A DNA stretch of 64,000 bases from Methylobacterium sp. E-045 (GTDB taxonomy: Bacteria > Pseudomonadota > Alphaproteobacteria > Rhizobiales > Beijerinckiaceae): positions 310,001 to 374,000 of the forward strand of contig NZ_JAKSYE010000125.1 of the NCBI RefSeq assembly GCF_022829685.1. The letters run 5' to 3'. A program made the position numbers and the translations under genes. The notes under the pieces are model-generated. The model worked only from the letters and a program-made list of their open reading frames with translations, was not told where the DNA came from and did not search any database. Below are positions 26,943-32,511 of this stretch, piece after piece (positions within the stretch are counted from its first letter, which is position 1; every line of letters starts with the position of its first letter).

Positions 26943-29900
26943 ATGCGCTTTGCCCACTTCTTCGTCGATCGGCCGATCTTCGCGTCGGTGACGTCGATCA
27001 TCTTCCTGATCCTCGGCTACGTCTCCTATGAGTCGCTGCCCGTCGCGCAATATCCCGAGATCGTGCCGCCCACCGTCGTCGTGCGCGCCTCCTATCCCGG
27101 CGCCAATGCCGAGACGGTGGCGGCGACGATCGCGACGCCCATCGAGCAGGAGGTGAACGGCGTCGACAACATGCTCTACATGACGTCGCTGTCCACCAAC
27201 GACGGCAACATGCAGCTGACCGTCACCTTCAAGGTCGGCACCAACCTCGATATCGCCAACGTGCTGGTGCAGAACCGTCTCTCGGTGGCGCAGCCGCGCC
27301 TTCCGCCCGACGTGCGCAACCTCGGCGTCACCGTCCGCAAGTCCTCGCCCGATCTGATGATGGTCGTGCACCTGCTGTCACCGGACAACACCTACGACCA
27401 GAACTACCTCTCCAACTACATCTACCTGCGGATCCGCGACGAGTTGCTGCGCCTCGACGGCGTCGGCGACATCACGGTGTTCGGCGGCAGCGAATACGCC
27501 CTGCGCATCTGGCTCGACCCGAACAAGCTCTCCGCCTACGGCCTCTCGACCACCGACGTCATCTCGGCCCTCCAGGAGCAGAACGTCCAGGTCGCCTCGG
27601 GAGCTCTCGGTGCCCCGCCCGCGCCGAAGGACAATGCCTTCCAGCTCGTCGTCCAGTCCCAGGGGCGCTTCCAGACTCCGGAAGAGTTCACCGAGGTCAT
27701 CGTCAAGGCCAGCGACGGCCGCCTCGTGCGCGTGAAGGACATCGCCCGCACCGAGATGGGCCAGAAGGACTACACCACCCAGTCCTTCCTGAACTCCACC
27801 CCCGCCGTCGGCGTCGGCGTGTTCCAGCGTCCGGGGACCAACGCCCTCGAAGCCGCCACGCAGGTGCGGGCGACGATGGAGACGATCAAGAAGAGCTTCC
27901 CGCCGGGGGTCGAGTATCGGATCGCCTACAACCCGACCGAGTTCATCGAGGAATCGGTCCACGAGGTCTACAAGACCCTGTTCGAGGCCGTGGCCCTCGT
28001 GGTCGTCGTGGTCATCGTCTTCCTGCAGAGCTGGCGCACGGCGCTGATCCCGGTGATCGCGATCCCGGTCTCGCTGATCGGCACCTTCGCGGCGATGGAG
28101 GCGTTCGGCTTCTCCATCAACAACCTCACCCTGTTCGGCCTCGTCCTCGCCATCGGCATCGTCGTCGACGACGCGATCGTGGTGGTGGAGAACGTCGAAC
28201 GGAACATGGCGGAGGGGCTCTCGCCCGGAGACGCCGCGCACAAGACCATGGACGAAGTGGGCGGCGCGGTACTCGCCATCGCCCTCGTCCTGTCGGCGGT
28301 GTTCATCCCCACCGCCTTCATCCCCGGAATTTCCGGACAGTTCTACAAGCAGTTCGCGCTCACCATCGCGGCCTCGACCATCATCTCGATGTTCAACTCG
28401 CTGACGCTGTCGCCGGCGCTCTGCAAGCTGCTGCTCAAGCCCCACCACGAACATGCCAAGCCGAAGTTCTTCCTGACGCGGTTCGTCGCCTGGCTCGCCG
28501 ACCTGTTCAACCGGGGCTTCGACAGGCTGTCGCATGGCTACGCCGCCACGATCCGATTCCTCACCGGCCGCACGATCGGCCTGCTCGGCATGATGGTGGT
28601 GTACGCCGCGATCATCGCCGGCACGCTGCATGTGGCCACCACGACGCCCACGGGCTTCATTCCGCAACAGGACCAGGGCTACCTCATCGGCGTCGTCCAG
28701 CTGCCCGCAGGCTCGGCGCTGGAACGGACCACCGCCGTGGTGCGGCGGGCCGCCGACATGGCCCTCAAGGTCGACGGCGTCGCCGATGCCGTCATCATCT
28801 CGGGCTTCGACGGGGCGACCTTCACCAACACCACCAACGGCGCGGTGATGTTCCTGGTTCTGAAGGGGGCAAAGGAGCGCGCCACCACGGGCAGAACGGC
28901 GGCGGCCATCACCGGCGACGTGTTCAAGGCCACCGCCTCGATCCAGGAGGCGCGGGTCCTGTTCATTCCGCCGCCCCCGGTCCGCGGCCTCGGCACCGGC
29001 GGCGGTTTCAAGATGCAGATCGAGAGCCGCCAGAACTCGGCCATCGCCCCCCTGCTGGCCGCCACGAACGAGATCCTCGGTCAGGCGAACCAGAGCAGCG
29101 ACGTCCAGCGGGTGTTCACCACCTTCGGCAACGACACGCCCCAGCTCTTCATCGACATCGATCGCACGATGGCGCGGATGCTGAACGTGCCGCTGGCGTC
29201 GGTCTTCGCCACCCTGCAGACCAATCTCGGCGGCGCCTACGTCAACGATTTCAACACGTTCGGCCGCATCTACCAGGTGCGTGCGCAGGCCGACGCCGCC
29301 TTCCGCCTGGAGAAGGGCGACATCGAACGGCTCAAGGTCCGTTCCTCCACCGGCGCCCTGGTGCCGATGGGGACACTGGCTTCGATCCGCGAGATCAGCG
29401 GGCCGCAGATCGTGCAGCGGTTCAACCTGTTCTATTCGGTCCCGATCCAGGGCGACGCCAAGCCCGGCATATCCACCGGCCAGGCCCTCGCGGCGATGGA
29501 AAAGATCGCCCAGTCCCTGCCGGAGGGCTACGCCTACGACTGGACCGAGATCGCCTTCCAGCAGAAGGCGACGGGCAACACCGCGATCTATGTCTTCGGT
29601 CTCGGCGTGCTCCTCGTCTTCCTGGTCCTGGCGGCGCAGTACGAATCCTGGGCGCTGCCGCTGGCGATCATCCTCGTCGTCCCGACGGGGGTGCTCTCGG
29701 CCCTGGGGGCGGTCCAGTTCAGGGGGCAGGACAACAACATCCTGACCCAGATCGGACTGATCGTGCTCATCGGTCTGGCGGCGAAGAACGCGATCCTGAT
29801 CGTGGAGTTCGCCCACCAGCTCGAAGAGACGGAGAAGAAGGGGCCGGTCGCCGCCGCGGTGGAAGCCTGCCGCCTGCGCCTGCGCCCGATCCTGATGACG

Positions 29901-30152
29901 GCCTTCGCCTTCATCCTCGGTACGGTGCCCCTCGTCATCGCCACCGGACCAGGCGCCGAGATGCGTCAGGCTCTCGGCACCGCGGTCTGCTTCGGCATGA
30001 TCGGCGCAACGTTCTTCGGCCTGTTCCTCACCCCGGTCTTCTACGTGGCGATCCGCAACATCCTGATCTGGTTCGCCAAGAAGCGCGGCAAGGATCCGCA
30101 CGACACCACCCCTGACAAGCACGACCCCCACGCGACGCCTTCGCACGCGTGA
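26943..30152 (+). CDS. RND multidrug efflux permease, HAE1/AcrB family
   Basis: A 1069-residue inner-membrane proton-drug antiporter of normal family length with twelve membrane helices and two large periplasmic loops. The proton-relay acidic pair is present in VDDAIVVVEN of helix 4, and the N-terminus (FFVDRPIFASV) is typical of AcrB/MexB/BepE. The C-terminus is rich in His and Asp (KHDPHATPSHA). Likely exports dyes, detergents or aromatic compounds with the upstream adaptor and an unlinked outer-membrane channel. Confidence 0.93.
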   Translation: MRFAHFFVDRPIFASVTSIIFLILGYVSYESLPVAQYPEIVPPTVVVRASYPGANAETVAATIATPIEQEVNGVDNMLYMTSLSTNDGNMQLTVTFKVGTNLDIANVLVQNRLSVAQPRLPPDVRNLGVTVRKSSPDLMMVVHLLSPDNTYDQNYLSNYIYLRIRDELLRLDGVGDITVFGGSEYALRIWLDPNKLSAYGLSTTDVISALQEQNVQVASGALGAPPAPKDNAFQLVVQSQGRFQTPEEFTEVIVKASDGRLVRVKDIARTEMGQKDYTTQSFLNSTPAVGVGVFQRPGTNALEAATQVRATMETIKKSFPPGVEYRIAYNPTEFIEESVHEVYKTLFEAVALVVVVVIVFLQSWRTALIPVIAIPVSLIGTFAAMEAFGFSINNLTLFGLVLAIGIVVDDAIVVVENVERNMAEGLSPGDAAHKTMDEVGGAVLAIALVLSAVFIPTAFIPGISGQFYKQFALTIAASTIISMFNSLTLSPALCKLLLKPHHEHAKPKFFLTRFVAWLADLFNRGFDRLSHGYAATIRFLTGRTIGLLGMMVVYAAIIAGTLHVATTTPTGFIPQQDQGYLIGVVQLPAGSALERTTAVVRRAADMALKVDGVADAVIISGFDGATFTNTTNGAVMFLVLKGAKERATTGRTAAAITGDVFKATASIQEARVLFIPPPPVRGLGTGGGFKMQIESRQNSAIAPLLAATNEILGQANQSSDVQRVFTTFGNDTPQLFIDIDRTMARMLNVPLASVFATLQTNLGGAYVNDFNTFGRIYQVRAQADAAFRLEKGDIERLKVRSSTGALVPMGTLASIREISGPQIVQRFNLFYSVPIQGDAKPGISTGQALAAMEKIAQSLPEGYAYDWTEIAFQQKATGNTAIYVFGLGVLLVFLVLAAQYESWALPLAIILVVPTGVLSALGAVQFRGQDNNILTQIGLIVLIGLAAKNAILIVEFAHQLEETEKKGPVAAAVEACRLRLRPILMTAFAFILGTVPLVIATGPGAEMRQALGTAVCFGMIGATFFGLFLTPVFYVAIRNILIWFAKKRGKDPHDTTPDKHDPHATPSHA

Positions 30153-30157
30153 CGACA

Positions 30158-30189
30158 GGCTCCGGCGCGTGAGGTCGCGTGCCGGAGCC
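30158..30189. terminator. Hairpin after the RND permease
   Basis: GGCTCCGGC (30158-30166) pairs with GCCGGAGCC (30181-30189), starting six bases after the stop codon. The inner part can extend the stem (GCG with CGC). No T-run follows. Confidence 0.5.
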
Positions 30190-30259
30190 ACGGAAAAGGG
30201 GTTGCGCACAGGTGACCGTGAAGCTAAGACCCCTCTGCCCTTCACGGGGCGTCGACGCG

Positions 30260-30284
30260 TAGCGCGGCCCGGTCAGCGCACTGG
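30260..30284 (+). pseudogene. tRNA-like relic (D-arm and partial anticodon arm)
   Basis: This stretch repeats the D-arm of the tRNA-Pro that lies 93 bases downstream, with one inserted base and about three substitutions. It is followed by an ACTGG/CCAGT stem (30280-30295) with an eight-base loop, one base too many for a working anticodon loop. No matching acceptor or T-arm can be drawn. It is probably a decayed tRNA duplicate. Confidence 0.45.
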
Positions 30285-30345
30285 TCTCAGGGCCAGTCAC
30301 CGGAACGGCCATTGACGCGAACGACAGGTTCAGAGCGGTTCTTGA

Positions 30346-30422
30346 CGGAGTATAGCGCAGCCCGGTAGCGCACCTGTCTGGGGGACAGGGGGTCGCAGGT
30401 TCAAGTCCTGCTACTCCGACCA
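30346..30422 (+). tRNA. tRNA-Pro(GGG)
   Basis: A 77-base cloverleaf with encoded CCA (30420-30422). Acceptor CGGAGTA pairs with TACTCCG; D-stem GCGC/GCGC; anticodon stem CCTGT/ACAGG with loop CTGGGGG, anticodon GGG at 30380-30382; T-stem GCAGG/CCTGC with loop TTCAAGT. It decodes CCC/CCU proline codons. A terminator follows about 50 bases later. Confidence 0.97.
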
Positions 30423-30474
30423 TTAAAACGCGGTGACATCGGCAAGACAGCAGATGTCCTCCGCTCTGACGTTG

Positions 30475-30505
30475 AAGGCCGGGGCGCGCTGTCCCCGGCC
30501 TTTTT
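30475..30505 (+). terminator. Intrinsic terminator after tRNA-Pro
   Basis: AAGGCCGGGG (30475-30484) pairs with CCCCGGCCTT (30493-30502), with an eight-base loop and five T (30501-30505). Canonical plus-strand terminator. Its A-containing left arm makes it weakly bidirectional, facing the leftward PilZ gene. Confidence 0.88.
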
Positions 30506-30568
30506 CGTTTCCAGGTCGTGTCGGTCGGTCGGGAGCCGGGCAGCGATCATCCGGCTCGGGTACGAGCG

Positions 30569-30936: not shown

Positions 30937-32511
30937 TCAGAAGAAGATCGGCCGCGCTGCCGCGTGGTGTTCGGCGAGGATCGCGTCCGTGGCCGGATCG
31001 ATCTCCTTGAGCACCGCGTCGTAGCCCCAGAGATCCGCCAGATGCTGCAGGACCCGGCGGGCATCGTCGGCCTGGAGCGTGATCCGGTTCAGCGCCTTGT
31101 GATGGACGATGAGGCGGCGGTCGCCCTCCAGATCGACATCCACGACCTCGATATCGGGATCGAGCCAGGCAACGTCGTATTGCCGGGCGAACGAGCGGCG
31201 CAGCTTGCGGTAGCCGCGCTCGTCATGGATGGCCTCCACGCGCAATTCCGCCTCGTCGGGGTCGTCGACCACGTGGAACAGTCGCATGTCGCGCATGAGC
31301 TTGGGGCTCAGGAACTGCGCGATGAAGCTCTCGTCCCGGTAATTCGCCCAGATGTCCCGCAGGGTCGCCATGGCGTCGCCCGTGCCCGCGATGTCGGGGA
31401 ACCACTCGCGATCCTCCTCCGTCGGCTGCTCCACGATGCGGGCGATGTCCTGCATCATGGCAAAGCCGATGGCGTAGGGATTGTGCCCACCATAGCCGCG
31501 CTCGTTGTAGTTCGGCTGGCGGACGACGTTGGTGTGCGACTGCAGGAATTCGAGATAGGCCGCCTCGCCGATCAGCCCCTTCTCCGAGAGCGAGTTCATG
31601 ATCCGGTAGTGGCAATAGGTGGCGCAGCCCTCGTTCATCACCTTGGTCTGGCGCTGGGGATAGAAATACTGTGCCACGAGGCGGACGATCCGCAGGATCT
31701 CGCGCTGCCACGGACGCAGGCGCGGGGCCGCCTTCTCGAGGAAGTAGAGCAGGTTCTCCTGCGGCAGTTCGAGGAGGGCCTTGCGCCGCTCCAGGGCGGC
31801 GTCGGGCCGGAGCCCGGCGCTCTTCTGCGGCAGGGTGCGCCACAGGTCGTTGTAGATCTGCTCGCCGTGCTCGGCCCGCTCGCGCTCGCGCCGCTGTTCC
31901 GAGGCGAGGTCCGGCCGCTTCTTGCGCGGATAGCGGTGGACGCCCTGGCTCATCAGGGCGTGGGCGGCGTCGAGCACCTGCTCCACCGCGTGGTGACCGT
32001 AGCGCTCCTCGCAGCGGGTGATGAACCCCTTGGCGAAGTCGAGGTAATCGAGGATGCCCTCGGCATCGGTCCATTGCTTGAACAGGTAGTTGTTCTTGAA
32101 GAAATGGTTGTGACCGAAGGCGGCGTGCGCGATCACCAGGGTCTGCATCGTCGCCGTGTTCTCCTCCATGATGTAGGAGATGCACGGGTCCGAATTGATG
32201 ACGATCTCGTAGGCGAGGCCCATCATGCCGCGGCGATAGCCGGCCTCGTGCTGGGCGAAGTGCTTCCCGAACGACCAGTGCTTGTAGAACAGCGGCATGC
32301 CGATGGAGGCATAGGCGTCGAGCATCTGCTCCGCCGTGATGATCTCGATCTGGTTCGGATACCAGGATAGGCCGAGTTCCTGGCCGGCGATGGTCTCGCA
32401 GGCGTCGTGGATGCGGCGGATCGTGTCGAAATCCCAGTCGTTGCCGGTGAACAGAGGCGGCTGGCCGCCCGACATCGTCGGCGATGCGGGGAAATGGAGG
32501 TTCGTGACCAT
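30937..32511 (-). CDS. SpoVR family protein (YcgB-like)
   Basis: A 524-residue SpoVR-family protein. Conserved stretches near the N-terminus include LGLSWYPNQIEIIT, FYKHWSFGKHF and EIVINSDPCISYIMEENT. SpoVR was named for spore cortex formation in Bacillus, but in non-sporulating proteobacteria the gene forms a conserved trio with prkA and yeaH and is linked to starvation or stationary phase. Here it is the third gene of that trio. Biochemical activity is unknown. Confidence 0.93.
   Translation of the reverse strand: MVTNLHFPASPTMSGGQPPLFTGNDWDFDTIRRIHDACETIAGQELGLSWYPNQIEIITAEQMLDAYASIGMPLFYKHWSFGKHFAQHEAGYRRGMMGLAYEIVINSDPCISYIMEENTATMQTLVIAHAAFGHNHFFKNNYLFKQWTDAEGILDYLDFAKGFITRCEERYGHHAVEQVLDAAHALMSQGVHRYPRKKRPDLASEQRRERERAEHGEQIYNDLWRTLPQKSAGLRPDAALERRKALLELPQENLLYFLEKAAPRLRPWQREILRIVRLVAQYFYPQRQTKVMNEGCATYCHYRIMNSLSEKGLIGEAAYLEFLQSHTNVVRQPNYNERGYGGHNPYAIGFAMMQDIARIVEQPTEEDREWFPDIAGTGDAMATLRDIWANYRDESFIAQFLSPKLMRDMRLFHVVDDPDEAELRVEAIHDERGYRKLRRSFARQYDVAWLDPDIEVVDVDLEGDRRLIVHHKALNRITLQADDARRVLQHLADLWGYDAVLKEIDPATDAILAEHHAAARPIFF

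Follow-up and report, generated by a model that had tools for sequence, protein, structure and literature searches.

The sequence that precedes the tRNA-Pro(GGG) gene of Methylobacterium sp. E-045 is very probably the remnant of the native 78-nt tRNA-Pro(GGG) gene of the locus, which was displaced by a 77-nt version (type B) and decayed beside it; it now probably forms the leader of its replacement, perhaps with a rod-like pairing retained. The type B gene, at 30346-30422, encodes the only tRNA recognized in the window (i.e., the whole 64,000-nt stretch of DNA that was analyzed). It lies downstream of the relic across a gap of 19 nt, and 115 bases separate it from the end of the promoter element at 30230. 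The features of the locus, in window coordinates, are as follows.

26943-30152, plus strand: RND efflux transporter gene (AcrB/AcrD/AcrF family; PF00873, 1142 bits), the upstream synteny neighbor
30202-30230, plus strand: probable promoter of the native tRNA gene, TTGCGC-17 bases-TAAGAC; a kindred element precedes the tRNA in all three tRNA types (78-nt, 77-nt type A, 77-nt type B)
30237-30250, plus strand: GC-rich leader with a short hairpin, GCCC..GGGC (RNAalifold, seven precursors)
30253-30326, plus strand: nearly complete relic (about 74 nt) of the native 78-nt tRNA-Pro(GGG), identified by shuffle-tested local alignment, position in relatives and covariance model
30253-30259, plus strand: remnant of the 5′ acceptor strand, CGACGCG (alignment with relatives)
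30262-30279, plus strand: D-arm remnant, stem GCGC/GCGC, its loop carrying the extra base of the 78-nt type (alignment)
30280-30297, plus strand: anticodon arm remnant, today a hairpin with an eight-base loop (relatives show two-sided pair changes)
30316-30325, plus strand: probable remnant of the 3′ acceptor strand and discriminator (end-to-end covariance model alignment; weak from the sequence alone)
30330-30338, plus strand: leader arm of the type B unit, with possible pairing to 30461-30469 (arm pairing and folds)
30346-30422, plus strand: intact tRNA-Pro(GGG), 77-nt type B (ARAGORN and the Rfam tRNA model), the sole GGG match of the genome
30461-30469, plus strand: trailer arm of the type B unit (arm pairing and folds)
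30474-30507, plus strand: intrinsic terminator of the type B unit, stem 30474-30503 plus T tail, with an equivalent in all 16 type B loci
30937-32511, minus strand: SpoVR-like gene (PF04293), the downstream synteny neighbor

A first-pass annotation of this DNA had described a decayed tRNA whose D-arm match begins at 30260. Using 30237-30345 as the query, we confirmed that starting point and found that the alignment can be extended to 30257-30292, where 32 of 36 positions are identical to the 78-nt tRNA-Pro(GGG) of relatives without a gap (local score, 26.0). The highest local scores in the controls, 18 among 5000 dinucleotide shuffles and 14 among the 19,837 other 109-base stretches of the window, were far below this value, showing that the resemblance is not due to chance. 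The match had been read as a repeat of the D-arm of the adjoining tRNA-Pro; the match is real, but the neighboring type B tRNA scored only 21.5 against the relic and needed a gap to do so, meaning that the relic is nearer to another type of tRNA-Pro than to its neighbor. In global alignments with the relic, two 78-nt forms scored 63.5 and 63.0, the 77-nt type A scored 62.5 and the type B neighbor 57.5, values that separate the types weakly, and it is position and the covariance model that decide the identity of the relic.

A covariance model was built from seven 75-nt relics of the clade to which the window belongs and was run on 31 sources. It matched the window at 30251-30325 and aligned over its whole length with the intact 78-nt tRNA at each of the 14 such loci provided (39 bits, E about 1e-7); of the type B tRNAs, which were contained in 17 of the sources, it listed not one at E-values up to 10 with default filters. 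The end-to-end alignment implies that both acceptor strands are still represented in the relic, contrary to the earlier view that no acceptor stem remains: the 5′ strand is at 30253-30259 and its 3′ counterpart at about 30316-30325. The 5′ strand reads CGACGCG in the window, CGAAGCG in five of the seven clade members and CGGAGCG in intact relatives. The anticodon-like stem noted previously is also present (30280-30284 with 30293-30297, enclosing the eight-base loop at 30285-30292). In the tRNA and covariance searches proposed as a check, neither ARAGORN nor the Rfam tRNA model, the latter even at E-values up to 10, called the relic, and the model made from the seven relics linked it to intact 78-nt tRNAs. 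Judging from the lack of a call by either program, the eight-base loop and a degenerate T-arm, the cloverleaf or a decodable anticodon arm has been lost. In a search of the leader for known Rfam families, the single match reached 7.2 bits against a cut-off of 69.

The position of the relic was then compared with that of intact genes. In several relatives (G098, G105, G095 and others), a similar promoter and leader run directly into an intact 78-nt tRNA-Pro(GGG), and when relatives were aligned on the leader, the start of the relic coincided with the start of the intact gene. Of the 16 type B genomes, 11 have the efflux gene upstream of the tRNA, as do eight genomes with an intact 78-nt tRNA, and SpoVR adjoins the tRNA in 11 type B genomes. 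In genome G108, the efflux gene and a 78-nt tRNA are found at the end of one contig, a second contig opens with the tRNA and continues with an integrase gene, and a third holds a 46-base exact 3′ fragment of the tRNA, with the end of SpoVR about 860 bases away. Across these separate contigs, the order efflux gene, 78-nt tRNA, SpoVR is that of the window except for the integrated element. SpoVR is located elsewhere in the other 78-nt genomes examined, at a distance of 10-18 kb on the same contig in G095, G124 and G001 and on another contig in G098 and G105. Since the relic sits behind the ancestral promoter, where the 78-nt gene of relatives sits, we conclude that it is the original gene and that its neighbor is the newcomer. 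The identification of the sequence as the decayed native 78-nt tRNA-Pro(GGG) of the locus, and not a copy of the downstream tRNA, is thus well supported by comparison of sequences, and the first-pass description of a decayed tRNA stands on the combined strength of alignment, position in relatives and the covariance model.

Two other origins can be weighed against these data. Given the conservation of D-arms and the GC-richness of the region, a chance similarity or a D-arm consensus alone might be suspected; the local score, however, was attained by none of the 5000 shuffles and none of the 19,837 other stretches, and relatives hold an intact gene at the exact position, making this explanation almost certainly wrong. 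The first-pass annotation had itself considered that relatives might show unrelated sequence here and the match reflect a mere D-arm consensus, which did not turn out to be the case, as they carry the intact 78-nt gene. It had favored a duplication relic, i.e., the decayed upstream copy of a tandem pair formed from the present type B tRNA. The close spacing, the shared D-arm and the global scores of 57.5 and 63.5 for type B and the 78-nt form, which are not far apart, are compatible with such a duplication. The gapless local score for the 78-nt form exceeds the gapped one for type B, though, and the D-loop of the relic has the extra base of the 78-nt type; moreover, the covariance model picks 78-nt tRNAs and not type B, and the relic occupies the position of the 78-nt gene of relatives, so that synteny largely refutes a duplicate and leaves it highly improbable. 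A profile search for the reverse arrangement, in which intact 78-nt genes would be accompanied by a decayed type B copy, covered 14 tRNA loci, locus L188 and 13 SpoVR loci, and listed only 78-nt tRNAs, three Pro-UGG genes and the 3′ fragment of G108.

It had also been proposed that the relic was possibly left by integration at the tRNA. Expressed fully, a site-specific element would have entered the tRNA gene and delivered a new tRNA, leaving the old one broken. Integration at this gene is indeed known in the genus, including at the orthologous site of G108. A tyrosine integrase (PF00589) adjoins the tRNA in 18 of 111 loci, identifying the gene as an attachment site; the distance between the tRNA and the end of the integrase match is 74-133 nt in 16 of the 18. 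In seven of the 11 integrase genomes tested, the 3′ end of type A occurs a second time, on the same contig at distances of 4.7 kb (G004), 17.7 kb (G026), 35.5 kb (G073) and 56.5 kb (G063). Type B, for its part, appears with a common unit in clades that are separate from one another. On the other hand, the integrase match within 1.5 kb downstream, which occurred in 11 of 31 type A loci, 4 of 44 78CG loci, 2 of 17 78TG loci and 1 of 3 untyped loci, was found at none of the 16 type B loci, an absence that is suggestive only (Fisher P = 0.069, phylogeny ignored). Furthermore, what integration leaves behind in relatives, as in G108, is a 3′ fragment at the far side of the element, in contrast to the relic, which is almost complete in length, is found on the side of the promoter and retains its 5′ part best; and all five IMG/VR contigs carry type A, none type B. 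The relic therefore does not have the form of a scar, and we consider an origin by integration unlikely.

Apart from the question of the relic, the tRNA-Pro(GGG) gene was seen to be a prophage attachment site of the genus, with a convergent integrase at L010, L011, L077, L116, L134, L151 and other loci and in the IMG/VR loci L317-L321. At the orthologous tRNA of G108 (loci L153, L154 and L224), an element is integrated, and the 46-base exact 3′ fragment near SpoVR marks its far end.

The sequence of the type B tRNA is identical in all 16 genomes that possess it. It is 72/77 identical to type A, matches the 78-nt forms at 63-66 of 78 columns, and is 63/77 and 59/77 identical to the Pro-CGG and Pro-UGG tRNAs of its own genome, which were considered as candidate sources. 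An exact 79-base search of the contig collection returned 12 records, all titled Methylobacterium, and in the plasmid collection a 331-base query had its best match in M. bullatum, at 90.3% identity. No donor outside the genus was apparent among 385 genomes of the class, in which the best hits outside it were 88-90% identical; of 167 phage-collection records, a single one had an identity in the 90-95% band, and the best of the 20 listed was 83.3% identical. Type B may have arrived by transfer and recombination or with a mobile element.

In all 16 genomes, a trailer arm and a GGCCTTTT terminator lie 3′ of the type B tRNA. The leader and trailer arms, which were picked by eye, are 95% paired over the 16 loci (10 distinct), with six of eight pairs changed on both sides; three of the 16 arms were shifted by one base in this count, which favors pairing. 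When folded singly, each of the 16 units showed 7-16 leader bases paired with the trailer. An unguided consensus fold of the 16 units lacked the leader-trailer helix and instead paired the trailer arm with the 5′ acceptor bases of the tRNA. As modeled from these folds, the flanking arms appear able to pair around the type B tRNA and to covary in the 16 genomes. The native downstream flank of G108 holds TTTCGGAACGG, which resembles the type B leader arm in G075 and others, and by this similarity the leader arm may be part of the old trailer. An arm sequence, CGGAGCG, is the same as the 5′ acceptor strand of the 78-nt tRNA, possibly by coincidence. At locus L038, Rfam matched the trailer to SorX with 17.9 bits, below the cut-off of 46.6.

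In the explanation we propose, type B would have arrived 19 nt downstream of the native gene with its own trailer and terminator, and the old gene would have decayed while its promoter came to drive transcription of type B. The recurrence of a TTGCG...CTA element before the tRNA in all three types makes transcription of type B from the old promoter likely, and the relic is likely to be transcribed as the 5′ leader of the type B precursor, as predicted from the arrangement of these sequences. RNase P would then remove the relic leader when making the 5′ end of the tRNA. A scan of 30140-30560 for a generic promoter consensus reported none; it also missed the conserved element and is therefore weak evidence. 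The old cloverleaf would have drifted into a long, rod-like hairpin with its pairing kept, and the rod perhaps keeps the leader from misfolding the tRNA.

Divergence along the relic was found to be uneven. Within the seven-genome clade, the mean pairwise difference was 0.134 for the 5′ acceptor strand and D-arm, 0.317 for the anticodon arm and 0.379 for the 3′ half and spacer; the reference values were 0 for the type B tRNA and 0.230 for the efflux gene (261 four-fold sites). The promoter stretch at 30201-30252 differed by 0.092, compared with the same four-fold sites. When four-fold sites were resampled, the 5′ part of the relic proved slow (P = 0.015) and the 3′ part fast (P = 0.0003).

RNAalifold folded 30251-30325 into one long hairpin with an energy, over the seven genomes, 4.2 standard deviations below that of column shuffles (1 of 1000 as low). 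In a second relic clade, consisting of four genomes, the corresponding energy with the short leader hairpin included was 5.1 standard deviations below shuffles (0 of 1000). Taken without the rest of the relic, the D-arm and anticodon part gave no significant fold, as 62 of 1000 shuffles equaled it. With a rod structure that was derived from the same sequences on which it was tested, and that is partly inherited from the tRNA, 93.1% of cells were paired in the seven relics (reached by 0 of 500 shuffles), 4 of 25 pairs changed on both sides (14 of 500 shuffles) and the covariation score was equaled by 1 of 500 shuffles; the number of further pair types was not unusual (105 of 500). At the expected place in the second clade, the relic covariance model matched one of four loci (L141, E = 0.0036). 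With moderate confidence, these models suggest that the rod-like pairing has been kept in two relic clades, and we infer that the rod may have a function in the leader of the type B precursor. There is a modest chance that the displaced tRNA has gone further and become a new RNA element, its cloverleaf refolded to a rod of roughly 75 nt, preserved in both clades, that acts inside the precursor of its successor or is set free from it; it might, for example, guide processing of the leader or be a small RNA freed by the RNase P cut at the new tRNA.

Exactly one match to the GGG anticodon-arm pattern was found in 108 of 111 genomes of the genus. G108 had two, at contig ends, and G011 and G027 had none at up to one mismatch, with Pro-CGG alone being found; these two cases may represent missing sequence, a variant or a true loss. 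Typing by full sequence, from which G014 (in which a contig end cuts the gene), the second G108 locus, G011 and G027 were excluded, assigned 61 of 108 genomes to a 78-nt form, 31 to the 77-nt type A and 16 to type B. On an rpoB tree of 107 genomes (105 labeled) with poorly supported deep nodes, parsimony required at least 12 changes of type, eight for type A and four for type B counted separately, in comparison with a minimum of 33 in 300 label shuffles. Judging from this distribution of sequences, displacement apparently recurs in the genus. Type A supplants the 78-nt form in place and without a relic, at least eight times on this tree.

A pattern permitting both D-loop lengths matched 113 of 397 genomes of the order, 17 of them, by our own count, with the shorter loop; within the order genomes, the combination of the shorter D-loop and a CCTGTC arm was listed solely in this genus. 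In G024, G032, G076 and G110, type B begins 14 bases past the GGGCGT-like end of the old leader, with no space for a relic. A long relic-like stretch is present again in G034, G075, G094 and G114. The genus offers a natural series, from the intact old gene, through a new gene with a relic, to a new gene with almost no relic, in which the replacement of a single-copy tRNA and the reuse of a dead tRNA as a structured leader can be studied. In this series, a near-universal single-copy tRNA has been swapped for another version, apparently repeatedly, and at the locus described here the loser still lies beside the winner, behind a promoter that the two probably share.

Fragments of tRNA genes left by the integration of genetic elements are described by van der Gulik et al. 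(2023; PMC9897764). Like those described there, the relic is a partial, non-canonical tRNA sequence next to or apart from a canonical one; unlike them, it derives by decay from the native gene, retains nearly the full length and is found on the promoter side, and the locus in the window is without an element. Rogers et al. (2012; PMC3399842) likewise describe the Bacillus cereus pseudo-tRNA tRNA-Other as tRNA-derived, no longer decoding and possibly contained in a longer RNA. The relic shares these properties but is located in what is presumed to be the leader of a functional tRNA, is too decayed for ARAGORN or Rfam, and is known here from its sequence. Evolution of bacterial tRNA gene sets by tandem duplication has been reported (eLife 2020; PMC7661048), and our case also concerns a change in such a set; in the present case, however, it was no copy but a different sequence type that came to serve a single-copy anticodon, and the genus apparently shows this switch more than once. 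Among the entries of a table in PMC11476347 is a tRNA-Pro GGG gene of S. meliloti. None of the titles listed in our literature searches concerned this locus.

A 131-aa open frame (MVGVAGLEPATPCPP...) was also present on the minus strand at 30028-30423 of the window, antisense to both the tRNA and the relic. The calling of frames over tRNA-Pro genes is a common annotation error, and this one is probably spurious.
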